From NCBI GenBank assembly GCA_022616275.1, contig JAKEFB010000224.1, forward strand, positions 1-44,127: a DNA stretch of 44,127 nucleotides, given 5' to 3'. Shown here piece by piece: positions 9,692 to 23,214 of this stretch. Each line of letters begins with the position of its first letter. Within the stretch, counting starts at the first letter, position 1. Under the pieces are notes generated by a model, which was given only the letters and a program-made list of their open reading frames with translations, ran no database searches and was not told the origin of the DNA. A program made the position numbers and the translations under genes. The stretch is from Chloroflexota bacterium (GTDB taxonomy: Bacteria; Chloroflexota; Anaerolineae; Promineifilales; Promineifilaceae).

Positions 9692-12600
9692 TTAATTTCT
9701 GAAAATGAGCGGCAGGTAGATCCGGCGGCTGGCAAAGACGATCACCGCGACCGAGTTGTTAGCCGTTTCCAGCTCCGGCCCGGCCTGGCCGATGGTGAAG
9801 GGGATGGTCAGGTTGGTGAAGGGCGGCACGCTGGCGTTGACCATCACGGTCACGGCGATGGTCAACGGCCCGCTGCCGGCCGGCAGGTTGCCGACGTTCC
9901 AGACCAGGTTGGGCGAGGTGGCCACCGGCGGCGGGCTGGCGCTGACGAAGGTCAGCCCGGCCGGCAACGTGCCGGTAATGAGCGTCCCGCCGGCGGCCGC
10001 GCCGCCCCGGTTGCCGTAGGTGAGGAGGAACGTTACCTGTTCGCCCGGCAGAGCGGCTGCATTTGCACCTTGTACCCACAGGTCCGGATAAGTAGAGCCC
10101 AGCGACACTTCGTCCAGGTAGGCCCAGGCCAGCGGGGCGTTGGCGGCCTGCTCCAGGCGGAAGGTCAGGGTAACGCTTTGCCCGGACCAGGATGAGAGGT
10201 CGGCCCGGCCGTGGGCCCAGCCGGTGCCGGTGGAACCGGTGAGAGAGAGGAGCGAAGTGGTCGTGTTGCCATCGTCTACTTCAGCGACCAGTTGCGAGCC
10301 ATTGTTGCTCAGTGTGCCGCCTAATTGATAAAGGAAGGAAAGTGACGGGCTGGTTATAGTTAGGGGAATGGTTACCACCTGAGTCAGTATCGAATCGCCG
10401 CTTACACTGGTTACGGCCGGCCCTCGATAATAGAGATCGCCATCACCTGTCGAATCATCGAGCCAGGCGATATGAACCGAGCCACTATAGTCAATTGCTA
10501 TCCTGGGCAGGTAGGAATTGTCGCTGTTGTTCGATAGGTTTTGCACGGCTGACCAGCTCCCGTCACTCAACATATAGGTGTAGGATACATCTTCGTAGAA
10601 TGCGGCGTAGATACTTCCTCCCCAGGCTACGTGAGGAAAACCGCTTTGGTCCAGGGCTAATACAGGGTAAGAGAAGAAACCCGTATTGCCAGAGAGATTA
10701 GTTGTGTCAGCCCAGGCTCCGTTATTCAACCGTTGGTTGTAGACAATTTGCTCGCCGCTTGACCAGACAATGTGAAGTGTTCCGTCAGCCGCCACAGCCA
10801 ATTCACTGGAGCCGCCAAGGCCGGCCACTTTTTGAGCGACCAACCAATCACCACTACTGTTCCGTTGCCGGTAGTGTAACCCTCCATCTGGTGGATCGTA
10901 GTTGGTCCACAAAACGTGTACTTCCCCAACGGGACCGACGGCCAGTGATGGATCGTAATCATTGGTCGAATTGTTAGAAAGGTTAAGGGGTAAAGACCAA
11001 GAACCACCGATTGGGCGGTGGGTGTAGAAAATTTCAGAGTCTCCCGATAAAGGAGATTGCCAGTAAACCAAATGGACGCTTCCACTATTATCTACTCTGA
11101 AATCTCCAGGGAAAGGATCGTTGCCGTTTCCAGATACAAGTTCTGGCTGGGTCCAACCCCCATTTGGGTTGCGCTGGCTGTAGAATAGGTGTCTGTCAGA
11201 AAGATAAGTTTCCTTCCAGATAACATGCACTATCCCGTTGTTCCCGACTGCTACATATGCTTCCCGGGCATAAGAGCTACCACTGCTTACGGTCTCTGGA
11301 TTCGACCAATTACCATTTTGTAACCGGGCATAGCGGACGAATTCACTTCCTGTGTAACTGGACCAGACAGCATGGATGACGCCGTTTGACCCTATGACTA
11401 CATTTGGCTCACCACCACCCATACTATCCAGTAACTGAACGCTCAACCATGTCCCGTTATTGTTGCGCCGGGCGTAATGTATACCAGTTTCTCCCCAAAG
11501 GACGTGAAGTTTATTCTGCGAGTCAACAACGAGAGCGGGTCTGTAAGCAGAATAAACTGGAATGTTCGAGAGGTTTTGGAGTGGGCCGAAAGTAAACGGG
11601 GGCTGGCCAAAGAAGGTAGAATACTGGCCGGTGTGGCGGATGGCGTTGGTGATGACAGGCGTAAACGCCCCGTCGGTGTTCCACTCCGGCTCCAGGCTGC
11701 CGCTTTCAAAGCCCCAGTTGCCAACGACGTTATCGGCCGGAGGCAGGATGGCGTTGAAGCGCAGATCATAACCGGCCGGCGCAATGACGGCCGGTAAATC
11801 GCCATAGCCGGCCTTGCTTAGATCCAGACTGTAGGTTGAAGAAGTGGTAGCCACGTAGCCGCCATAGGCGCCGTTGCTATCGCCAGAAATCGTGCCCACG
11901 GCCGCCGGGTTAGTCGTAACGGTAGCTCCTACCACAGGCGCATTGCCGTTATCTTGCACCAGGCCACTGGCGCCCCAGGTGTAGAAGGTTGTCTGGGTAT
12001 CGCCGTTGCCGGCCGGCCAGGCTTCGACGTTTTGTGCTCCATCTATAGCTCGCTCTCGGAAGGCCACTGTCTGGCCGCTGGCGGCGCCGCTAAAGACGGC
12101 CGAATTGGCGGTCGTACCAGTTTGCCAGTTCGTCCAACTGCCGTTGCCAATGCGGTACTGAGCATCATATCTGGCAATGCCGGAGCCGCCTGGGTCCCAA
12201 CCGGACCAATAGAGGAGCAAATTGCCGCCAAAGCGGAAGAAAGGTGATACTGGGGCTATGGCCGAGACAGGAGGAAGGTTTTCGACGGTGGTTACAGCAT
12301 CCGGCCCGGCCGGCCAGGGCTCCAAATTATAGGCATTGTCCCGAGCCCGGCTGCGGAAAGAGTAGGTCTGGCCACCAACGCCAGGATGTGAGCCAGAGGT
12401 GGCCGTCGTGTTCACCAGCCAATCGGTCCAGGGGTCGCTACCCTGCCGTACCTGGACGTCGTAACTCCGCAGGCCCGACCCACCACTATCACTGCCGGTC
12501 CAGCGGACTGGAATTGGGCCAGCGGATTGTATTGGCAACGGGTTGACACTGGAGGTAGGCGCTTGAATCTCAACTGTTTGCCAGTCGGGATTCCAATCCC

Positions 12601-13606
12601 GGTCGTTGGCGCTTAGGCCAATAGCATTCCAATAGGTGGTATTCAAGGCATTCAGATAGGCTTGTGTCCAGTACCAGGTGCCGCCCTGCTGGATAAAAGA
12701 AATGTGAGTGAAGGCAATGTATTGGCCGTCAGGTGACCAGCTCCGTACCCAGGCATCAGTCTGGTACTGGTACGAATCGTAAACCTGTTGTTGGTTAGAA
12801 CCACTGGCGTTCATCAACCATACCTCTTGCCAGCCATCGTTGTCGCCGTCCGAGTCGTAGGCGATTTTGCTGCCATCCGGCGACCAGGCCGGGTTGTTAC
12901 TGTAAGCCTGGTTGGAGAGTTGTATCTGGTTAGAGCCGTTGGCATTCATGGTGTAGATGCGGTAGCCGCCGGTGCGACGAGAGACGAAGGCGATTTTGCT
13001 GCCGTCCGGCGACCATACCGGCGAAGCGTCGTAATCGCCGTCAAACGTCAGGCGGGTCTGGCCGGAGCCGTCGGCGTTCATGACGTAAATCTCCGGCTGG
13101 CCGTCGCGGTAGGACTGGAAGGCAATTCGAGCGCCGTCCGGCGACCAGGCTGGGTTGACGTTGTCAAATCCGGTGAAGGTCAACCGGACCTGGTTGCTGC
13201 TGTCGGCGTTCATGGTGAAGATTTCGTAGGTGCCGGAACGTTTGGAAGAAAAGACGATGCGTGTCGCGCCGCGATTGAAACGGGGATGGATATCGGCGGC
13301 AACGATTTGCGTCAGGCGGGCCTGGCCGGAGCCATCGTCGTTGCCATTGTAGATTTCCCATTGGTTGTCGCGATAGGACTGGAAGACGAGCTTGCTCCAG
13401 GGGATTATTTGGGGATTGGTAGGTTGGGGTGGGGATTCCGGCCGCGGGTCCCGCAAGAGGCGTTCGGCCGTATAGTTGTAGAGCGGCCGGGCCGGCGGGT
13501 TTTCTTCCGCAGCCGGCGTCGCCTGGCCGGCCAGGACGGTGGCAAAGGTACTCAGGCCCAGGACGACCAGGGCCGTGGCCATGAGGGCCAAGATTCTTTT
13601 ATTCAT
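9692..13606 (-). CDS. Large secreted multi-domain protein: TolB-like propeller, sialidase-like propeller, DUF11 and YLPLI tail
   Basis: The protein has 1304 residues and begins with a signal peptide (about 1-27). Residues about 70-340 are WD40-like PD40/TolB repeats, each with WSPDG and I(Y/F)xMNxxGSN. About 345-555 are two Ig/FN3-like modules with W(T/S)GxDxGGSG and ending in EPWP/EAWP. About 560-620 resemble a carboxypeptidase-regulatory-like domain. About 690-1065 hold eight repeats of the form (D/G)xxGxxHVxW...Y.(R/Q)R...G.W, a BNR/sialidase-like propeller. A jelly-roll-like domain (about 1070-1170) and a DUF11 domain (about 1180-1290) follow, and the chain ends RRIYLPLIFRN. No catalytic residues are evident, so binding or surface display is more likely than catalysis. 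AAGGAA precedes the ATG. The coding sequence for the sialidase-like part is visibly poorer in GC than its flanks. Confidence 0.85.
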   Translation of the reverse strand: MNKRILALMATALVVLGLSTFATVLAGQATPAAEENPPARPLYNYTAERLLRDPRPESPPQPTNPQIIPWSKLVFQSYRDNQWEIYNGNDDGSGQARLTQIVAADIHPRFNRGATRIVFSSKRSGTYEIFTMNADSSNQVRLTFTGFDNVNPAWSPDGARIAFQSYRDGQPEIYVMNADGSGQTRLTFDGDYDASPVWSPDGSKIAFVSRRTGGYRIYTMNANGSNQIQLSNQAYSNNPAWSPDGSKIAYDSDGDNDGWQEVWLMNASGSNQQQVYDSYQYQTDAWVRSWSPDGQYIAFTHISFIQQGGTWYWTQAYLNALNTTYWNAIGLSANDRDWNPDWQTVEIQAPTSSVNPLPIQSAGPIPVRWTGSDSGGSGLRSYDVQVRQGSDPWTDWLVNTTATSGSHPGVGGQTYSFRSRARDNAYNLEPWPAGPDAVTTVENLPPVSAIAPVSPFFRFGGNLLLYWSGWDPGGSGIARYDAQYRIGNGSWTNWQTGTTANSAVFSGAASGQTVAFRERAIDGAQNVEAWPAGNGDTQTTFYTWGASGLVQDNGNAPVVGATVTTNPAAVGTISGDSNGAYGGYVATTSSTYSLDLSKAGYGDLPAVIAPAGYDLRFNAILPPADNVVGNWGFESGSLEPEWNTDGAFTPVITNAIRHTGQYSTFFGQPPFTFGPLQNLSNIPVYSAYRPALVVDSQNKLHVLWGETGIHYARRNNNGTWLSVQLLDSMGGGEPNVVIGSNGVIHAVWSSYTGSEFVRYARLQNGNWSNPETVSSGSSYAREAYVAVGNNGIVHVIWKETYLSDRHLFYSQRNPNGGWTQPELVSGNGNDPFPGDFRVDNSGSVHLVYWQSPLSGDSEIFYTHRPIGGSWSLPLNLSNNSTNDYDPSLAVGPVGEVHVLWTNYDPPDGGLHYRQRNSSGDWLVAQKVAGLGGSSELAVAADGTLHIVWSSGEQIVYNQRLNNGAWADTTNLSGNTGFFSYPVLALDQSGFPHVAWGGSIYAAFYEDVSYTYMLSDGSWSAVQNLSNNSDNSYLPRIAIDYSGSVHIAWLDDSTGDGDLYYRGPAVTSVSGDSILTQVVTIPLTITSPSLSFLYQLGGTLSNNGSQLVAEVDDGNTTTSLLSLTGSTGTGWAHGRADLSSWSGQSVTLTFRLEQAANAPLAWAYLDEVSLGSTYPDLWVQGANAAALPGEQVTFLLTYGNRGGAAAGGTLITGTLPAGLTFVSASPPPVATSPNLVWNVGNLPAGSGPLTIAVTVMVNASVPPFTNLTIPFTIGQAGPELETANNSVAVIVFASRRIYLPLIFRN

Positions 13607-14662: not shown

Positions 14663-15712
14663 ATGTATCGCCAATTATTGATTATTTTTTTGATAGTAGC
14701 TCTGGCGCTGGTCGCTTGTACGTCCGAGACCCAGCCCGAGGCCCAGGCCACACAGCCGGCGGCCAACGAAAATCAGGCCGAACCTGAGCCGACCGAAGCG
14801 GCCGAGGAGCCAGCTCCAACCGAAGAGGCCATGCCCGAGGAGACAGGTTCTGGCCTGCCGGCGGTAGACCCGCTGGCAGTGGAGGGCGACATCGTCACGG
14901 CCGGCAGCTCGACGGTCTTTCCCTTGACCGAGCGGATGGCCGAGCGGTTCGAGGATGAAGGCTACGCCGGCAACATCACCATTGACAGCATTGGTAGCGG
15001 GGCCGGGTTCGAGCGGTTCTGTGTGGCCGGAGAGACGGACATTTCTAACGCCAGCCGGCCGATCAATGAAGAAGAAATCGCCTCCTGCCAGGCGATTGGC
15101 CGGGAGGTGGTTGAGTTCCGGGTGGGGACGGACGCCCTGGCGGTGGTCGTCAACCCGGCCAACGACTTTGTGGATGACCTGACGCTGGAGCAGTTGGCCC
15201 TGGCCTTCTCTACGGCCGAGACGTGGGCCGACATTGACCCGGGCTGGCCGGCCGAGCCGATCCTGCGCTTCAGCCCCGGCACCGACAGCGGGACGTTCGA
15301 CTACTTCGTGGAAGAGGTCTTTGACGAGGACGAGGCCCCGCTTCTGAGCGCCGCCAACTTGCAGTTGAGCGAGGACGACAACATCCTGGTCCAGGGTGTG
15401 GCCGGCAGCCAGTACGCCATCGGCTATTTCGGTTACGCCTATTACCAGGAAAACCAGGAATCGCTGCGAGTCCTATCCATTGAGGGCGTGGAGCCGTCGG
15501 CCGAAAACGTGGACAACGCTTCCTACCCCTTGGCCCGGCCGCTGTTCATCTACTCGGCCACCGAGATCTTGCAGGAGAAGCCCCAGGTGGCCGCCTTCAT
15601 TAACTTCTACCTGACCTACGTCAACGAGGAGATCGTGGACGTTGGCTACTTCCCCGCCAGCGAGGACGCCTATAACCAGGCTGTCCAGAACTGGTTGGAC
15701 GCTGCGGGATAG
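14663..15712 (+). CDS. pstS: Phosphate-binding lipoprotein PstS
   Basis: The 349-residue protein has a lipoprotein signal ending LVAC (Cys19), an acidic Pro/Glu/Ala linker (20-70) and a class-II phosphate-binding domain. The ligand loops are visible: [11 protein letters not shown] (79-89), NASRP (129-133) and GTDSG (206-210). The C-terminal half carries QYAIGYFGYAYY and ARPLFIY. It captures phosphate outside the membrane and delivers it to PstC/PstA. The start at 14663 is preferred over an in-frame ATG 18 bases upstream because GAGGAG lies 8 bases before it. It is first in the operon, and a hairpin separates it from pstC. Its closest visible relative is the permuted domain inside PstA of the same operon. 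Confidence 0.95.
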   Translation: MYRQLLIIFLIVALALVACTSETQPEAQATQPAANENQAEPEPTEAAEEPAPTEEAMPEETGSGLPAVDPLAVEGDIVTAGSSTVFPLTERMAERFEDEGYAGNITIDSIGSGAGFERFCVAGETDISNASRPINEEEIASCQAIGREVVEFRVGTDALAVVVNPANDFVDDLTLEQLALAFSTAETWADIDPGWPAEPILRFSPGTDSGTFDYFVEEVFDEDEAPLLSAANLQLSEDDNILVQGVAGSQYAIGYFGYAYYQENQESLRVLSIEGVEPSAENVDNASYPLARPLFIYSATEILQEKPQVAAFINFYLTYVNEEIVDVGYFPASEDAYNQAVQNWLDAAG

Positions 15713-15855: not shown

Positions 15856-17040
15856 ATGGAAACCAGAGTGGTGGTTGAACCCCATCGCGGCCCGGCCGTC
15901 TTGACCCAAGCGCCCAACCTGGCCCGGCGGCGGCGCGCCGGGGAGGCGCTCATTCAGGCCTTTTTGTTTCTCTGCGGGGTGTTGTCCATCCTGACGACGA
16001 TTGGCATTGTCTACGAGCTGGGCCGGGAGTCGCTCAACTTCTTTACCCGGCAGCAGTGGGAGAACACCAACAAGCCCCTGGCCGTGGACGTGACGCCGGA
16101 AATGACCACCTTTGAAGTGGGGACGGCCGGCGGCGCGTTGCGAGAAGGAGAGACGCTTCGCGTCGGCGACGAGGTCATGCGGCTGGTGGCCATTGACGGC
16201 GCTACCGTGACCGTTGAGCGCGGCCTGCAGGGGAGTGAGGCCACGACTCATAATGCTGGCCGGCCGATTTTTCGATCCAACCGGGTCTCATTGATCGAAT
16301 TTTTCACCGGCACCAAATGGAATCCCCAATTGGGCCAGGTTGGTATCTTGCCGCTGGTGAACGCTACCCTCATGGTCAGCGCCATCGCCATGCTGGTGGC
16401 CCTGCCTTTGGGCCTGGCGGCGGCTATTTACCTCAGCGAATATGCCTCGCCCCGGATGCGGAATAGACTCAAGCCCATCCTGGAGATTTTGGCCGGGATT
16501 CCCACAGTCGTTTACGGCTATTTTGCCCTGACCTTCATGACGCCGTTGCTGCAGGCCATCTTTGGCGCGCAGCGGGTCCAAATCTTCAACGTTGCTTCCG
16601 GCGGTATTGTCGTCGGCATTTTAATCATTCCCCTGGTTTCCTCGATGAGCGAGGATGCGCTTAGCGCCGTGCCCCGCGCGCTGCGGGAAGCGGCTTATGG
16701 CCTGGGCGCGACCAAGCTGGAAACTTCGATTAAAGTTGTGCTGCCGGCCGCCCTGTCGGGCATTGCCGCCGCTTTCGTGGTGGCCATCTCCCGGGCCATT
16801 GGCGAAACGATGGTCGTGGCCATTGCCGTCGGCGCCGGGCCGGCCTTCACCTTCAACCCCTTCGCCTCGGCCGAAACGATGACCGGCCACATTGTGCGCA
16901 TTAGCGGGGGCGACCTGAGTTACGACTCGATTGACTACAACAGCATCTTTGCCATTGGCCTGCTGCTGTTTTTCATGACCCTGGCTTTGAATATTGTCAG
17001 TCGCCGGATTGTGCGGCGCTTCCGTGAGGTCTATGAGTAA
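15856..17040 (+). CDS. pstC: Phosphate ABC transporter permease PstC with an inserted external-loop domain
   Basis: The protein has 394 residues from the ATG at 15856, which has a strong AGAGGAGGAAGG Shine-Dalgarno. The first helix is about residues 31-53. The PstC core follows, with [21 protein letters not shown], the EAA-type loop [22 protein letters not shown] and [18 protein letters not shown]. PstC proteins are commonly about 300-330 residues. The surplus here is a segment at about 70-137 containing [15 protein letters not shown] and [18 protein letters not shown], a small beta-rich domain between helix 1 and the core, outside the cell. Its stop overlaps the pstA start by one base (TAATG). 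With PstA it forms the translocation channel for phosphate. Confidence 0.92.
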
Positions 17041-19259
17041 TGGCTGCTGAATACAAACAGGGCGACGGCTATCCCGAAGGGGAAGCCCTGCGGGTGCAAG
17101 TCAGGCGCCGCCACCGCGGTGGTCTATGGTGGCGATTAATTTTCCAGGTCTCAACGATTATTGGCATCATTACCCTGATGGCGCTGCTTTACAACATTAC
17201 CAACCAGGCCTTTGGGCTGGTGGCGGTGGAAAATGAGAAGGACCCGGCCAGCCTGGTCCTGGCTTACGAAGAGGGGCGCTTACTAGGGGCGTCTAATACG
17301 GTCGCCAGCGAAGATGACAACGAGCTGGCCCAGGGGATTGTCGGCAACCCCTACGCGATTGGCTTTTTCGGTTACGCCTATTACCAGCAAAACCAGGACG
17401 CTTTGCGGGCCCTGGCCGTGGATGGGCAGGAACCGACGGCCGAAACAGTCGAAAACGGCCAGTATCCGCTGGCCCGGCCGCTGTTTATCTACACCACGGC
17501 CGGCATCATGGCCGAGAAGCCCCAGGTAGCGGCTCTTGTCAATTATTACCTGGCCCACGCCAACGAAGCAGTAGCTGAGGTCGGTTATTTCCCGGCCAGC
17601 CCGGAGGAGCTTCAGGAGGCCCAAAACGCCTGGCTGGCTGCCCAGGGGCTGGAAGGAGAAACATTGCCGGTTGTGAATCCGGCCGACTACGAGGGCGAGA
17701 TCATCATTGCCGGTAGCTCCACCGTCTTTCCCCTCACCCAGCGCGTCCTGGAACGTTTCCGGGCCGACGGCTTTGCCGGGCCGGTGACGCTGGACAATAT
17801 CGGCAGCACGGCCGGCCTGCGCCGCTTCTGCGTTGAGGGCAGCAGCGACATCGCCAACGCCAGCCGGCCGATCACCCCCGACGAGTTTGCTGCCTGCCGG
17901 GCCATCGGCCGCCAGCCACTGGAGATCCGCGTTAGCACTGACGCCCTGGCCGTGGTCGCCAGCGTGCAAAACGACTTCCTCTCCGGCGTGAGCCAGGAAG
18001 AGCTGGGCCAGCTTTTCACCACGGCCGTCAACTGGTCGGACGTGAACCCGGCCTGGCCGGCCGAGCCTATTCAGCGCTTTATTCCCGGCGCCGATAGCGG
18101 GACGCTGGACTTCTTCACCGAAACAATTTTCCCCCAGGAGCTGGCCGATCTGCCCAAGGAGACGCTGCTAGACATCCTGGCGGCCAACATCTCGACCGGC
18201 CTCGGCCGCCGCCTGGAGCGGGAGCAGCGCTTCTTCGACGACTGGTTGGTCTTTGAAAACCCTGACCTTTTTGCCGAGGTCTGCGCCAGCGCCGAGCCGC
18301 CGGCCGGCTGTGTACTGCCGGCCCGTGGCCAGGACGACGTCTACCGCCTGGTGCTGGAGCGGGTGGTCGTGCCCAACGTGGTCCAGACCTGGTCGCTGGT
18401 GGATTCTCTCTTTAACCGGTCTGGGATTTTGCTGCAGGTCCAGCAAAAATACCCCAACGCCGTCCTGGAGTTTCGTTCCTGGGTAACGCCCGCTTTCATC
18501 AGCAGCCCGCAATCGAGTGAGCCGGAGTTGGCCGGCGTGCGCACGGCTATCCTGGGCTCGCTGTGGGTCATCGCCATCACCATTCTCTTTGCTTTCCCCA
18601 TTGGCGTCGGGGCGGCCGTCTACCTGGAGGAGTACGCCGGCGATAGCTGGTTCAACCGGATGATCCAGACCAACATCAACAACCTGGCCGGCGTGCCGTC
18701 CATCATTTATGGCATGTTGGGGCTGGCTATCTTTGTCCGCGTGCTGGAAGCGTTGACCAGCGGCGCAACCTTTGGCGCGATTGACGACTCGACCACCGCC
18801 AACGGCCGGACGATTCTCTCGGCCAGCCTGACGCTGGGGTTACTGATTCTGCCGCTCATTATCATCAACGCCCAGGAGGCCATTCGGGCCGTGCCGGGCT
18901 CGTTGCGCCAGGCCAGCTACGGCGTGGGGGCGACCAAGTGGCAGACGATCTGGAGTCACGTGCTGCCCAACGCCCTGCCGGGCATTCTGACCGGCACGAT
19001 CCTGGCTATGTCCCGGGCCATCGGCGAGACGGCCCCTCTGGTCGTCGTCGGCGCTTCGACCTTTATCACTGCCGACCCTGAAGGCCCGTTCTCCAAATTC
19101 ACGACGTTGCCTATCCAGATTTACCAATGGACGGCCCGGCCGCAGGCTGAATTCCGCAATATTGCCGCCGCGGCGATTATTATCTTGTTGATCTTGTTGC
19201 TATCGCTCAACGCCACCGCCATTATCCTGCGCAATAAGACCAGCAAGAAGATGGTGTAA
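17040..19259 (+). CDS. pstA: Phosphate ABC permease PstA with a circularly permuted PstS domain in its first external loop
   Basis: This is a single 739-residue frame; ordinary PstA is about 280-300. Residues 31-52 form helix 1. Residues about 84-203 match the C-terminal half of PstS ([11 protein letters not shown] at 90, [28 protein letters not shown] at 181). Residues about 218-365 match the N-terminal half ([13 protein letters not shown] at 221, NASRP, GADSG at 350). The two halves are therefore in swapped order, joined where the natural ends of PstS would meet. Both phosphate-loop motifs are intact. The normal PstA loop resumes near 366, and the transport core runs from about 497 with [31 protein letters not shown] and [16 protein letters not shown]. 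It is coupled to pstC by a one-base overlap, and pstB follows after 5 bases. Confidence 0.93.
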
Positions 19260-19264
19260 GTACA

Positions 19265-20056
19265 ATGGCCGAAACAGTTTTTTCAAGCAACGGCGACTAT
19301 GCGCTGGAAACCCGGAATATGAACGTTTATTATGGCCAGTTCCGGGCCGTTAAGGAGATTAGCTTGAAGTTCAAGCCGCGCCAGATTACGGCCCTCATTG
19401 GCCCGTCTGGCTGTGGCAAGAGCACGGTGTTGCGGGCCTTCAACCGGATGAACGATCTGGTGCCTTCGGCGCGGGTCGAGGGCCGGGTGTTGCTCCACGG
19501 TAAGAACATCTACGAAGCCGACGTAGACCCGGTAGAGGTGCGCCGGCGCATCGGCATGGTCTTCCAGAAGCCCAACCCGTTCCCCAAGAGCATTTACGAA
19601 AACGTGGCCTGGGGCGCGCGGATTAACGGTTTTAAAGGAAATATGGATGCTCTGGTCGAGCAATCACTGCGGCAGGCGGCCTTGTGGGACGAGGTCAAGG
19701 ACAAGCTGCCACAGAGCGGCCTTTCCCTCTCCGGCGGCCAGCAGCAGCGGCTGTGCATTGCCCGGGCCATTGCCATCAAACCGGAAATTATCTTGATGGA
19801 CGAGCCGGCCTCGGCTCTGGACCCGATTGCCACGCTGCGCATCGAGGAACTGATCCAGGAGCTGAAACGCAACTATACGATCATTATCGTGACCCACAAC
19901 ATGCAGCAGGCCGGCCGGGCCTCCGATTACACTGCGTTCTTCACCGTGGACGAAAACCGGGCCGGCTACCTGGTGGAGTACGGCCGGACCAGCGACATTT
20001 TTACCAATCCTAAGAACTCGCTAACCGAGCAATACATTACCGGCCGGTTTGGGTAA
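19265..20056 (+). CDS. pstB: Phosphate ABC transporter ATP-binding protein PstB
   Basis: The 263-residue ATPase shows Walker [10 protein letters not shown] (46-54), the Q-loop in [10 protein letters not shown], the ABC signature LSGGQ (155-159), Walker B IILMDE (175-180) and the switch histidine in [21 protein letters not shown] and the C-terminal [12 protein letters not shown] are characteristic of PstB. It powers phosphate import through PstC and PstA from the cytoplasmic side. The gene follows pstA by 5 bases, so the two are co-transcribed. Length and motifs are fully normal, in contrast to the two enlarged membrane subunits. Confidence 0.96.
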
Positions 20057-20107: not shown

Positions 20108-20530
20108 ATGGCTAAAAAGCGCGTCTTGATTCTGTGTACCGGTAATTCGGCCCGCAGCCAGATGGCTGAAGGGCTGGTCAATCACTTCGCCGGCGACGAG
20201 TGGGCTGCCTATTCGGCCGGCACGGAACCGGCCGGCACCGTCCACCCGCTGGCTATCCAGGCCATGGCCGAGCTGGAAATTGATCTCGCCGGCCACCACT
20301 CCAAGTCGGTAGATGTTTTTCGGGATGATTCCTTCGACCTGGTGATCACTGTTTGTGACGATGCGGCCGAAAATTGTCCGGTCTGGCTGGGCAACGGCCG
20401 GGTGGTCCACCTTGGCTTCCCCGATCCGGCCCGGGCCACCGGCAGCGAAGCGGAGCGGCTGGCCGTCTTTCGCCGGGTGCGGGATGACATTCGCCGGCAG
20501 CTTCTCGATTACTTGCAGAGCAATGGCTAA
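20108..20530 (+). CDS. arsC: Thioredoxin-coupled arsenate reductase ArsC (low-molecular-weight phosphatase fold)
   Basis: The 140-residue protein opens with the phosphatase P-loop CTGNSARSQ (C10, R16). It also has the two extra redox cysteines of Staphylococcus/Bacillus-type ArsC, C83 and C90 in VCDDAAENC, and a catalytic Asp in GFPDP. It reduces arsenate to arsenite, passing the disulfide from C10 to C83/C90 for repair by thioredoxin. Placement inside the pst operon makes sense because arsenate enters through phosphate transporters. A tyrosine phosphatase role is less likely, because those lack the C83/C90 pair. Expression should rise with phosphate starvation, when arsenate leak is greatest. 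Confidence 0.88.
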   Translation: MAKKRVLILCTGNSARSQMAEGLVNHFAGDEWAAYSAGTEPAGTVHPLAIQAMAELEIDLAGHHSKSVDVFRDDSFDLVITVCDDAAENCPVWLGNGRVVHLGFPDPARATGSEAERLAVFRRVRDDIRRQLLDYLQSNG

Positions 20531-20573: not shown

Positions 20574-20633
20574 ATGGACGACAGTGGGCCGAAGAACGTC
20601 GTCTGTCGTCTGTCGTCCACTGGAGATGATGTT

Positions 20634-21323
20634 ATGCTACGAGCAACCTTTGAAAGAGAGCTGCAGCGGCTGCAAGATCGGTTGTTGGCCCTGGGCAACG
20701 AGGTGGGGGACAACGTCGTCGAGGCAGTCGAGGTGCTCCGGCGGCGAGATATGATCGGCGCGCAGCGGCTCATTGCTGCCGACCTTTGGGTCAACGAGCG
20801 GCGGATTGGCATTATGACCGACGCCCTGTTGCTGATTGCCACCCAGCAGCCGATGGCTGGCGACATGCGCCTGATTGCCAGCATCATCGAAATCACCGGC
20901 GAGCTGGAGCGCATCAACGACTATGCCAAGGGGATTGCCAAGATTAACCTGATGATTGGCGAAGCCTCGGTTGGGGAGCTGCTGGTCGAGATGCCAGAAA
21001 TGGCCGAAAAGATGCGGGCCATGCTCTACCAGGCGCTGGAGGCCTTTAGCCGGCGGGACGCGGCCCTGGCCCGGGCCATTCCGGCGGCCGACGACGAGGT
21101 GGACGCTCTCTTCAACCAGACTTACCGGGAGCTGGTGATTGCCGTCATGGACGACCCCAGCCTGATCGAGCACGTCAACCGCCTGGAATGGGCGGCCCAC
21201 AACCTGGAGCGGGCCGCCGACCGGGTGACGAATATTTGCGAGTGGATCGTCTACGCGGCCGTGGGCGAATACGTGGAGATGGACTCAGAAATAGAAGCGC
21301 CGCCGCAGTATAGGCGAGATTAG
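20634..21323 (+). CDS. phoU: Phosphate signalling protein PhoU
   Basis: The protein has 229 residues from the ATG at 20634, which has GGAG nearby. The frame is open far upstream, but that part overlaps arsC and is not coding. The sequence is all-helical with two PhoU repeats. Each has the metal-binding E/D-rich signature: LIASIIEITGELERINDYAKGI in the first and LEWAAHNLERAADRVTNICEW in the second. PhoU restrains the Pst transporter and the sensor kinase when phosphate is plentiful. It closes the pst operon. The kinase and regulator that act with it are not identifiable here: the two-component pair at 36.2-37.8 kb is possible but unproven. Confidence 0.93.
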   Translation: MLRATFERELQRLQDRLLALGNEVGDNVVEAVEVLRRRDMIGAQRLIAADLWVNERRIGIMTDALLLIATQQPMAGDMRLIASIIEITGELERINDYAKGIAKINLMIGEASVGELLVEMPEMAEKMRAMLYQALEAFSRRDAALARAIPAADDEVDALFNQTYRELVIAVMDDPSLIEHVNRLEWAAHNLERAADRVTNICEWIVYAAVGEYVEMDSEIEAPPQYRRD

Positions 21324-21496: not shown

Positions 21497-21568
21497 CCTC
21501 TTCTCTCCTCCTGACCCCATGATCTGTGCGACCGGGGCAGGGCGCCCGCCCTGCCCCGGTCGTGCTTT
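21497..21568 (+). ncRNA. Candidate phosphate-starvation small RNA
   Basis: Transcription from the -10 at 21486-21491 would begin near 21497. The first about 33 bases are unpaired and CU-rich, including CTCTCCTCCTG, which is complementary to purine-rich Shine-Dalgarno sites such as GAGGAG. A 15-bp GC-rich hairpin (21530-21561) follows and then GTGCTTTT, giving an intrinsic terminator on the plus strand. The expected RNA is about 70 bases. This architecture (CU-rich tail plus terminator) is that of several Gram-positive regulatory RNAs. No expression evidence is available, so this is a prediction. Confidence 0.42.
21530..21561 (+). terminator. GC-rich hairpin with T-run on the plus strand
   Basis: The 15-base arms (21530-21544 and 21547-21561) are perfect. 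On the plus strand GTGCTTTT follows, a short T-run; on the minus strand no T-run follows. It therefore terminates plus-strand transcription better, although it also lies just past the stop codon of the PA14 gene and may serve both. Confidence 0.65.
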
Positions 21569-23214
21569 TACGGCTTCGGCCGGAGAGCAGCCGGAACAGC
21601 TATGGGCAGCCAGGCGCCCCCGGCGGCCGGCTGATCCCAACCGGGCAGCGCCGCGCTGCTCAGTTCCTCCCACCAGACCTTGATCCGCGCGTCGAACTCG
21701 CTGTCAAAATACTCGACGACGACCAGGTACTCCCCGGCCGCCAGGGTAATGTCGCCGGTGACTTCCCGCTCCGACCCGACCTGCCACTCATTAATGACAG
21801 GGTTGTCGTCCACAAAAATGCGCACGCCGTCGTCTACCAGGGCGTGGAAGCGGTATACTCCCTGCTCAAACTCGAAGAACTCGGCCCAGCGTACGGAGAA
21901 TTCGTCATTGGGGATGCCGGTGGCCGGCGAACCCGTTCCCCAATCAAAATCAATCACCGCGTCGGTGCGCACCAGTGTGGCCGTGCCGCTCAGATCGGGA
22001 TTGTCGAAATACTCGCCCTGCCAGTTGCCGGGGGCCGTTCCGGATACCCACCAGAACTCGATCATAGCGTCGGCCGTGTTGTCGTAAAACTCAACGCGCA
22101 ATAGGTGGTTGCCGGCGGTCAAGGTGCGTTCGGCGGTATAGGTGTTGGGCGTGGCGTCGTGCCATTCGTTAATAATGAGCTGATTGTCTAGCCAGACGCG
22201 GACGCCATCGTCGGCGCGGGCATTGAAGGTGTACGCGCCGGCGGCAAAGTTGAGGGTGCGCGTCCAGCGGATGGAGAACCGGTCTACCGGGATGTTCGTG
22301 GCCGGTGGATTCTTGCCCCAATCGAAATTGACCTCGACGTCGTTGCGAATGAGGGTCGGCGCACCGTCCAGGTTCGGGTTGGAATAATACTCGGCCCGCC
22401 ACTGGGGATATTGGGTGGCGTTGTCCCACCAAAACTGGATTTGGGCCGTGCCACTGCCTTCGTAGTAGTCAATCCGCAGCGAGTGGTCGCCGGTTATGAG
22501 CGTGCGGTCTACACTGTAAGTGACGTTGCCGGCGTCGTGCCACTCGTCAATGACGAGCTGGTTGTCCAGCCAGATGCGGACGCCATCGTCGCTGCGGACG
22601 TTGAAGCGGTAAGTGCCGGCGCCAAAGGCCAGGGTGCGCGTCCAGCGCACGGAGAAGTTGTCGGCCGGCAAACCGGAGGCGGGCGCGGCCGTGCTCCAGT
22701 TAAAGTCCACGTTGTTGTCCAGGCGGGTGAGGGTGGGACTGCCGGACAGGTCGCGGTTGTTGAAATACTCGCCCTGCCAGGCGTCGGGCGGCCGGGTGGC
22801 TGTGGGCGTGGGCGACGGTGAGCGCGTGGCCGTGGGCACGACAGGCGGCTGGGTGACACGGGGTGGGGGCGGGGGGGGTGGTATGAAAGGTGTGCTGGTT
22901 GGTAGCGGTGGCAGCGTCGGCCGTGGCGTAGGCGAAGGCCGGAGCGTAGCCGTGACCGACAAGGTGCTGGTAGCTGTGGGTGTCGAAAGGTCAATGGTGC
23001 TGCTGGGTTCCGGCGTCAAGGTCGGCGGAAGCGTTCGCGTGGCCGAGGGAACGACCGCCACGGGGACCTGCGTTGGCAGGGAATCGCCGCCCGGCGGGGC
23101 GTTCACGAAGGAAATAGCGGCCCCGACGCCGAGAAGACATACCAGCGCGCCGACGCCGACGAGCAGAGCAATCAACCAGGCAGGAATTGGGGGTTGGTTA
23201 ACGTTGTCTCGCAT
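21568..23214 (-). CDS. Membrane-anchored protein with three PA14 domains
   Basis: The 548-residue protein has one N-terminal membrane helix (about 12-34) without a cleavage site. A Pro/Thr/Ser linker (about 45-144) and three PA14 domains starting at residues 146, 272 and 398, exactly 126 residues apart, follow. Each begins with a W(Q/R)xEY(F/Y)xN-like motif and has the carbohydrate-binding DDGVR(I/V)(W/F)(L/V)D core; the third has VDD in place of LDN. PA14 domains bind sugars, often with calcium. The protein probably displays sugar-binding modules on the cell surface. GGAG precedes the ATG by 9 bases. No enzyme domain is present. Its stop codon lies in the T-run of the candidate small RNA terminator. 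Confidence 0.85.
   Translation of the reverse strand: MRDNVNQPPIPAWLIALLVGVGALVCLLGVGAAISFVNAPPGGDSLPTQVPVAVVPSATRTLPPTLTPEPSSTIDLSTPTATSTLSVTATLRPSPTPRPTLPPLPTSTPFIPPPPPPPRVTQPPVVPTATRSPSPTPTATRPPDAWQGEYFNNRDLSGSPTLTRLDNNVDFNWSTAAPASGLPADNFSVRWTRTLAFGAGTYRFNVRSDDGVRIWLDNQLVIDEWHDAGNVTYSVDRTLITGDHSLRIDYYEGSGTAQIQFWWDNATQYPQWRAEYYSNPNLDGAPTLIRNDVEVNFDWGKNPPATNIPVDRFSIRWTRTLNFAAGAYTFNARADDGVRVWLDNQLIINEWHDATPNTYTAERTLTAGNHLLRVEFYDNTADAMIEFWWVSGTAPGNWQGEYFDNPDLSGTATLVRTDAVIDFDWGTGSPATGIPNDEFSVRWAEFFEFEQGVYRFHALVDDGVRIFVDDNPVINEWQVGSEREVTGDITLAAGEYLVVVEYFDSEFDARIKVWWEELSSAALPGWDQPAAGGAWLPIAVPAALRPKP

Follow-up and report, generated by a model that had tools for sequence, protein, structure and literature searches.

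A circularly permuted PstS domain nested in an extracellular loop of the phosphate permease subunit PstA in Chloroflexota

A complete domain of the phosphate-binding protein PstS, circularly permuted, sits in the extracellular loop between the first two transmembrane helices (TM1 and TM2) of the permease subunit PstA encoded on contig JAKEFB010000224.1 from a Chloroflexota bacterium of the family Promineifilaceae (assembly GCA_022616275.1, 8.53 Mb in 309 contigs). The window is the whole stretch of 44,127 nucleotides analysed here, and L and G numbers label the loci and genomes compared with it. Binding domain and permease domain share a single frame of 739 aa; the insert lies between TM1 and TM2 and not at a terminus, and its carrier is the permease gene pstA and not the ATPase gene. 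The insert is real and conserved, and we infer its function from the conservation of its ligand residues and from its operon partners.

BLASTP comparison of PstS with PstA aligned two segments whose order is swapped, PstS 39-227 with PstA 186-371 (52%, 202 bits) and PstS 223-349 with PstA 77-203 (57%, 159 bits), whereas the best of 500 shuffled PstS sequences reached 29.6 bits, which rejects chance similarity. The PstS motifs were located in PstA where the sequence-only reading of this DNA had placed them. The swap was also returned by the Pfam profile alone, with positions 10-152 of PF12849 at nt 17694-18128 and positions 160-263 at nt 17289-17549, and it is independent of the local PstS because the window's PstS was not used in the profile search. 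PF12849 scored 97.7 bits on PstA against 27, in two stretches with both halves homologous, and TIGR02136 scored 197.1 bits, slightly below its cut-off of 206.6. The insert reverses the order of PstS-type domains, in which the N-half precedes the C-half. The parts concerned are as follows.

14663..15712, plus strand: pstS, the free phosphate-binding lipoprotein of 349 aa, N-half then C-half (PF12849 over 75-317; TIGR02136, 248.1 bits; lipobox by our own reading of the letters).
17040..19259, plus strand: pstA, the 739-aa permease subunit with the nested permuted PstS domain (TIGR00974 above cut-off; two swapped PF12849 stretches).
17082..17210, plus strand: long first helix with TM1, residues 15-57, arginine-rich at its cytoplasmic end; a helix in the AlphaFold2 model, aligned in 18 insert-type proteins.
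17268..17648, plus strand: C-half of the insert, residues 77-203, 57% to PstS 223-349, with the strand/helix pattern in the model.
17649..17693, plus strand: joint of the natural PstS ends, residues 204-218, worded similarly to the junctions of tandem double PstS proteins.
17694..18140, plus strand: N-half of the insert, residues 219-367, 52% to PstS 39-227, with ligand residues conserved.
18141..18491, plus strand: PstA's own extracellular scaffold, residues 368-484, also found in insert-less PstA of relatives.
18492..19256, plus strand: PstA transport core, residues 485-739 (PF00528, TIGR00974; Foldseek match to the E. coli PstA chain 9k3s_A).

The transport core follows the insert, as the sequence-only reading had it. 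Window PstA passes the equivalog TIGR00974 in the NCBIfam profile search (248.8 bits, cut-off 193.45, residues 482-735) and carries a BPD_transp_1 core (PF00528, 69.3 bits against 26.4, residues 520-725), and its gene keeps its place in a pstS-pstC-pstA-pstB-phoU operon, as in related operons. It thus shares transport core and operon place with ordinary PstA (TIGR00974; E. coli PstSCAB structures 9k3s, 9k3x and 9k3y), whereas the E. coli PstA chain of 296 aa is too short for a binding domain.

The AlphaFold2 model of the window's PstA, built with 37 sequences, had a mean predicted local distance difference test score (pLDDT) of 87.5 and a predicted template modelling score of 0.72, with block means of pLDDT between 88 and 98 in the insert. 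On the entry side, the helix of residues 15-57 is followed by a strand (58-65) and a helix (69-83) that leads into the insert; on the exit side, nine residues lie between the helices 354-363 and 373-383, after which come the PstA scaffold and core. Since both ends of the insert share one lobe and the connections are short, it is probably mounted rigidly on PstA. Assigning segments to lobes by our own reading of the model strands and the known fold, the C-half starts inside lobe 2 (LLGASN-SEDDN) and runs over the hinge to the C-terminal part of lobe 1, and the N-half runs from the N-terminal stretch over the hinge strand to lobe 2. These halves are joined by the last PstS helix, a short linker and then, in many inserts including that of the window, the start of mature PstS; the linker counts 4-9 residues in 36 of the 45 distinct inserts and 12-18 in the other nine (median 7).

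Foldseek ranked Streptococcus pneumoniae PstS2 (4h1x) first for the model, ahead of E. coli PstA and PstC, with 283 aligned columns and a template modelling (TM) score, normalised by target length, of 0.75; for 4jwo, which is not permuted, the match extended over only 168 columns (TM score 0.37). We explain this ranking by the sequence of 4h1x, which itself has the rotated order: phmmer aligned insert residues 19-254 with 4h1x 56-258 in one colinear stretch, and window PstS 74-189 matches the C-terminal part of 4h1x (155-262). A solved structure therefore exists for a natural protein with this rotation. This phosphate-binding protein has the same rotated halves as the insert and differs from it in being free. 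By alignment ends, its break may lie about 28 residues upstream of the insert's, its first 55 chain residues being unaligned; its last residues match PstS at about 189, and the insert continues to about 220. The fold predicted for the insert is thus the usual two-lobed one of a binding protein, as would be expected if the sequence-only reading were right. That reading had set the new ends at the hinge before SEDDN; they are better placed within lobe 2, at the passage from the helix that follows DSGT to LLxAxN-SEDDN, because natural reduced forms keep lobe 2 together with the hinge strands. On the model, then, the permutation break is inside the lobe that those forms keep.

Ligand positions were chosen by motif and by correspondence with E. 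coli PstS, of whose ligand residues we take them to be the equivalents. The ligand motifs of PstS are present in the window's insert, and over the 45 inserts R276 is kept in all, S226, S275 and S353 in 44, S227 and R346 in 43, and T355 in 40. Over 44 inserts, the nine ligand columns had a mean conservation of 0.93 versus 0.59 for the 273 others, and only 1 in 100,000 random nine-column sets was as conserved. Besides, pstC was in view at 43 insert-type loci, and in all 31 of them with at least 1300 nt in view beyond it (reduced forms included) a free PstS was found; the insert therefore adds to PstS and does not replace it. Of 42 distinct full-insert operons examined, ten offered 2000 nt or more of downstream sequence, and each of the ten has phoU there.

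A survey of Chloroflexota PstA proteins, proposed with the sequence-only reading as a check, showed the insert to recur. It is present in 31 of 53 genomes of the family, across 14 of 23 genera: 29 have the insert and the core in a single frame (truncated by a contig end in some), one has it split into two frames (G034) and in one it is cut by the contig end after the C-half (G006). Among the other family genomes, ten have an insert-less PstA of this operon, one could not be assigned (G011) and 11 have no PstA of this kind, these last assemblies being possibly incomplete. An even draw of the class comprised 397 genomes, 365 of them outside the family; in 34 of these, chosen mostly for long frames and opened, we found at least two forms reduced to lobe 2 and, spread over five further family groups, at least 15 full inserts. 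From the phylum as a whole, 400 genomes were drawn, and the sole insert-type among the matches listed for them was the window's own. Ten of 80 named loci among the matches listed are insert-type, one of them split, and named carriers include Promineifilum sp. Go_SlAct_bin_419 (L098), Ardenticatenia MAG1 (L099, whose sequence contains masked or ambiguous stretches) and Caldilineales SKYG74 (L102). This distribution over many genomes rules out an assembly chimera. Sequence, distribution and predicted fold together bear out the reading of a permuted PstS domain in the first external loop that retains its ligand loops.

Several long frames resembling the insert-type (L182, L187-L192 and L194) proved to lack a PstS-like insert. 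In two of them (L187:2248-4431 and L190:1572-4289), about 330 residues between TM1 and the core are scaffold-repeat-like (LxxLxxxEL) with no PstS domain. The PstA at L068:1217-2914 has about 75 additional residues within the transport core and none in the outer loop. At L055:1337-3492, on a contig shared with L103, an insert-type PstA occupies two overlapping frames and is split within the insert, which may be a real split, a pseudogene or a sequencing error.

We turned to trees for the history of the insert. The binding-domain tree held 161 domains (166 distinct, with five distant paralogues labelled Sb dropped), the halves being aligned separately. All 45 distinct inserts fell on one side of a branch with a support of 100 in the Shimodaira-Hasegawa-like approximate likelihood ratio test (SH-aLRT), and the other side held 116 PstS domains including tandem copies. 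Because of this branch, and in agreement with the shared entry and exit sites, a single origin of the insert is likely; we grade it so and not as proven because several inserts are fast, the tree search was short and a long-branch warning was given. A recent local copy of the window's pstS was rejected as a source, as identity at the DNA level amounts to 72% and 68% and the tree puts the window's insert with the other inserts and not with the window's PstS; third codon positions are 49.6% identical in the C-half (127 codons).

The permutation itself probably arose from a stretch of a tandem double pstS gene of the same operon kind, since in the central part of such a gene a C-half is followed by a joint and an N-half. 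The joint resembles that of the inserts, several tandem linkers being longer. Tandem double PstS proteins in one frame were met at 14 loci, eight beside an insert-type and six beside an insert-less PstA.

L041, L062, L064, L101, L113, L123, L135, L175, L185, L195, L197, L198, L199 and L201: tandem double PstS, about 600-700 aa.

Their presence in the same operon kind makes them plausible intermediates for the usual route of duplication and trimming. The tandem copies are sisters in seven of 12 pairs of the tree, and the compared segments of L195 are identical, so that the pairs look recent or homogenised. No insert groups with a tandem copy in the binding-domain tree, which is expected if the event is old. 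Judging by the list of matches alone, other parts of the phylum also have frames similar to tandem PstS. A free permuted PstS as a source was absent from the fetched loci, similar frames in the phylum list being unopened; all frames with C-half before N-half and no permease core were tandem double PstS, the split gene L055/L103 or frames truncated where a contig begins (L167, L202).

The core tree comprised 137 PstA cores with insert columns excluded, among them L096_none, an aberrant long branch and paralogue. On it the insert trait requires at least 16 changes, gain and loss counted alike, starred branches forcing five of them, and one 65-row part (support 84) contains 40 of the 41 full inserts besides 22 insert-less rows. 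Later loss is visible in two lineages from scars: L060 retains residues resembling the insert start of its sister L055, and in L061 12 of 20 residues match the start of the L099 insert. No scar was seen in L058 and L059, the insert-less PstA nearest to the window, where the insert may have been lost cleanly, been replaced or never been present. Four proteins are reduced to lobe 2.

L209:1044-2756, L210:2517-4133, L159:6408-8120 and L137:3916-5625: lobe-2-only PstA, in frames of 539-571 aa.

In L209 and L210, the C-half profile is matched from 3 to about 52 and then the N-half from about 94 to 159 (in L210 from 72), which makes up one lobe and both hinge strands with the other lobe missing. L137 and L159 show a diverged form of this pattern, in which the N-half alone is significant and the C-half is our own reading of the letters, and the DSGT loop is altered in all four. 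The reduced forms occupy two separate places of the core tree, with L137 and L159 on a long branch away from L209 and L210. The L159 model (mean pLDDT 76.2), a weaker one, gave only transporter chains in the best 50 of 317 Foldseek matches and neither proves nor disproves a folded lobe. A core-tree group with a support of 99 unites seven full inserts, L180 among them, with L209 and L210; as L180 has lost most ligand motifs, decay followed by loss of a lobe is the plain reading of the sequences in this group.

On these grounds we would picture the following course. A PstS-type domain, permuted with both ends side by side in lobe 2, would have entered the TM1-TM2 loop of PstA, probably once, in an ancestor that belonged to a single class of Chloroflexota, to judge by the named carriers probably Anaerolineae, to be inherited afterwards, sometimes lost, and in two groups reduced to lobe 2. 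Held by two short connections on the outer scaffold of PstA, it may bind phosphate or a close analogue, act as a fixed receptor at the pore mouth, with the medium or the free lipoprotein PstS as its source of phosphate, and hand this to the PstC-PstA channel. We favour such a second, fixed phosphate receptor beside free PstS because the ligand residues are conserved, free PstS is kept and phoU lies downstream; we would give it about an even chance of being right. More tentatively, and with the odds somewhat against it, we speculate that this is a two-receptor ATP-binding cassette (ABC) importer of a new layout, in which a free lipoprotein is joined by a permuted copy held rigid in the pore subunit that would supply ligand without docking from solution, the copy having been captured once from the middle of a tandem gene and having separable lobes, one of them cleanly removed in two groups.

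Several observations weigh against this picture. The insert model deviates from 4h1x by a root-mean-square of 5.9 Å. Two pocket positions have drifted, that of S256 being T in 27 of 45 inserts and that of N273 being N in 21 of 45, and the insert is less conserved than PstS in all 435 pairs of 30 loci (median identity 44.6% versus 69.8%). Many relatives lack the insert; L180, a full insert in the L209/L210 group, is without most ligand motifs, which, together with the lobe-2-only state of L209 and L210, argues that binding is dispensable in places. As to the tree, SH-aLRT values from a short search may be too high where fast rows group together; the program flagged long end branches, mostly of inserts, with L183 and L184 in a long-branch join, and seven rows (including four inserts) whose composition is odd.

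A regulatory role competes with the fixed receptor. The insert could read external phosphate and set the conformation of PstCAB, and with it the uptake rate or PhoU signalling, with free PstS alone feeding the pore. Free PstS is kept in all 31 operons mentioned above, and phoU is found in the window and in the ten full-insert operons; the additional domain of CmpC is thought to be a solute-binding regulatory domain (PMC11349869), and the conformation of the E. coli transporter has been proposed as the signal (PMC5775613). However, no signalling partner was identified, the external position on the permease suits ligand delivery equally well, and the analogy is one of architecture only, so that we regard a sensor as possible and rather unlikely.

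MalF P2 is an enlarged periplasmic loop, and by analogy the insert might chiefly dock free PstS or shield the pore mouth, ligand binding being incidental or ancestral. The lower conservation of the insert relative to PstS, the persistence of lobe-2-only forms in two groups and the drift at N273 and S256 would suit such a platform, whereas the selective conservation of ligand residues (R276 in 45/45, S353 in 44/45 and R346 in 43/45) would not, and we consider it improbable. The differences between inserts and PstS at N273 and S256 could also point to a receptor for another oxyanion (arsenate, phosphite or phosphonate) that widens or guards the substrate range, as could the arsenate-reductase-like LMWPc gene between pstB and phoU, which may be a guard against arsenate entering with phosphate; with core ligand residues the same as in PstS, this strikes us as a poor prospect. 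Lastly, a functionless relic or an assembly chimera, which the split gene L055, the ligand-dead L180 and losses in relatives might suggest, is hardly credible, since the 45 distinct copies come from a large number of separate assemblies in six family groups of the class, 44 share a frame with the permease core, and the ligand columns are conserved.

To our knowledge, the receptors fused to importers all sit on chain ends. In GlnPQ and OpuA the tethered substrate-binding proteins are terminal, have the normal order and replace the free one. The PstA insert resembles them in that binding and permease domain share one chain; theirs are flexibly linked, whereas the insert is permuted, nested in a loop by two short connections and accompanied by a free binding protein. 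For GlnPQ, several receptors per pore in one polypeptide with the permease have been described, with a flexible linker of 14 aa between its two binding domains (PMC8025302). As with the fixed receptor proposed here, a second binding-type domain beside a retained free binding protein is found in CmpC of cyanobacteria, to which NrtC is likened; the domain order in CmpC is normal, and its domain sits at the C-terminus of the ATPase, whereas the insert is permuted and on the permease. This second binding-protein-like domain of CmpC is placed on a transporter subunit and thought regulatory in PMC11349869. A natural circular permutation of a two-lobed binding protein is shared with Treponema MglB-2, a sugar-binding lipoprotein that binds glucose and whose permutation the authors suggest to be tied to membrane tethering (PMC4990184); it differs in its Type I fold, as a free lipoprotein and in its permutation. 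The sequence-only reading knew of no permuted binding domain inside PstA, and this stands in so far as a literature search of titles and abstract openings, outside preprints and most subscription journals, showed none nested within a permease loop among the records listed; permuted binding proteins as such were already known from 4h1x and MglB-2. Nesting of a receptor illustrates that permutation can fit a domain with ill-placed natural ends into a loop. Since full, ligand-dead, lobe-2-only, scarred and insert-less forms occur in relatives, natural proteins are at hand for testing how a built-in receptor evolved and is used, and if the insert binds phosphate, the need for a receptor that comes and goes can be probed on one protein.

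The remaining genes of the operon are as follows.

15856..17040, plus strand: pstC, the partner permease subunit (TIGR02138, 261.8 bits, above cut-off).
19265..20056, plus strand: pstB, the ATPase and next gene of the operon, presumably so from its translation; it served as pstB reference for related operons.
20108..20530, between pstB and phoU: LMWPc gene, low-molecular-weight phosphatase or arsenate-reductase-like (PF01451).
20607..21323, plus strand: phoU (PF01895, 106.4 bits), given as the stretch searched, with the start codon not fixed.

In the window's pstC, a long stretch at about 16060-16330 lies ahead of the PstC core; some relatives have it and others lack it. That such a long extracellular region of PstC goes with the insert was considered and set aside, as the region is found with 11 of 39 full inserts versus 17 of 82 insert-less operons, with no clear link. 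The PstC core at L184:3083-4462 holds about 70 additional, partly hydrophobic residues. Beside some insert-type operons, a second, distant pstS-like gene is found on the opposite strand (L044:6938-7888, L046:6933-7937, L047:91-1071 and L094:2120-3154), with 37-39% over the N-half. The operon of the window is flanked on the minus strand by a protein of 1304 aa (9692-13606) that has PD40 repeats and a DUF11 domain and by one of 548 aa (21568-23214) that has three PA14 stretches.

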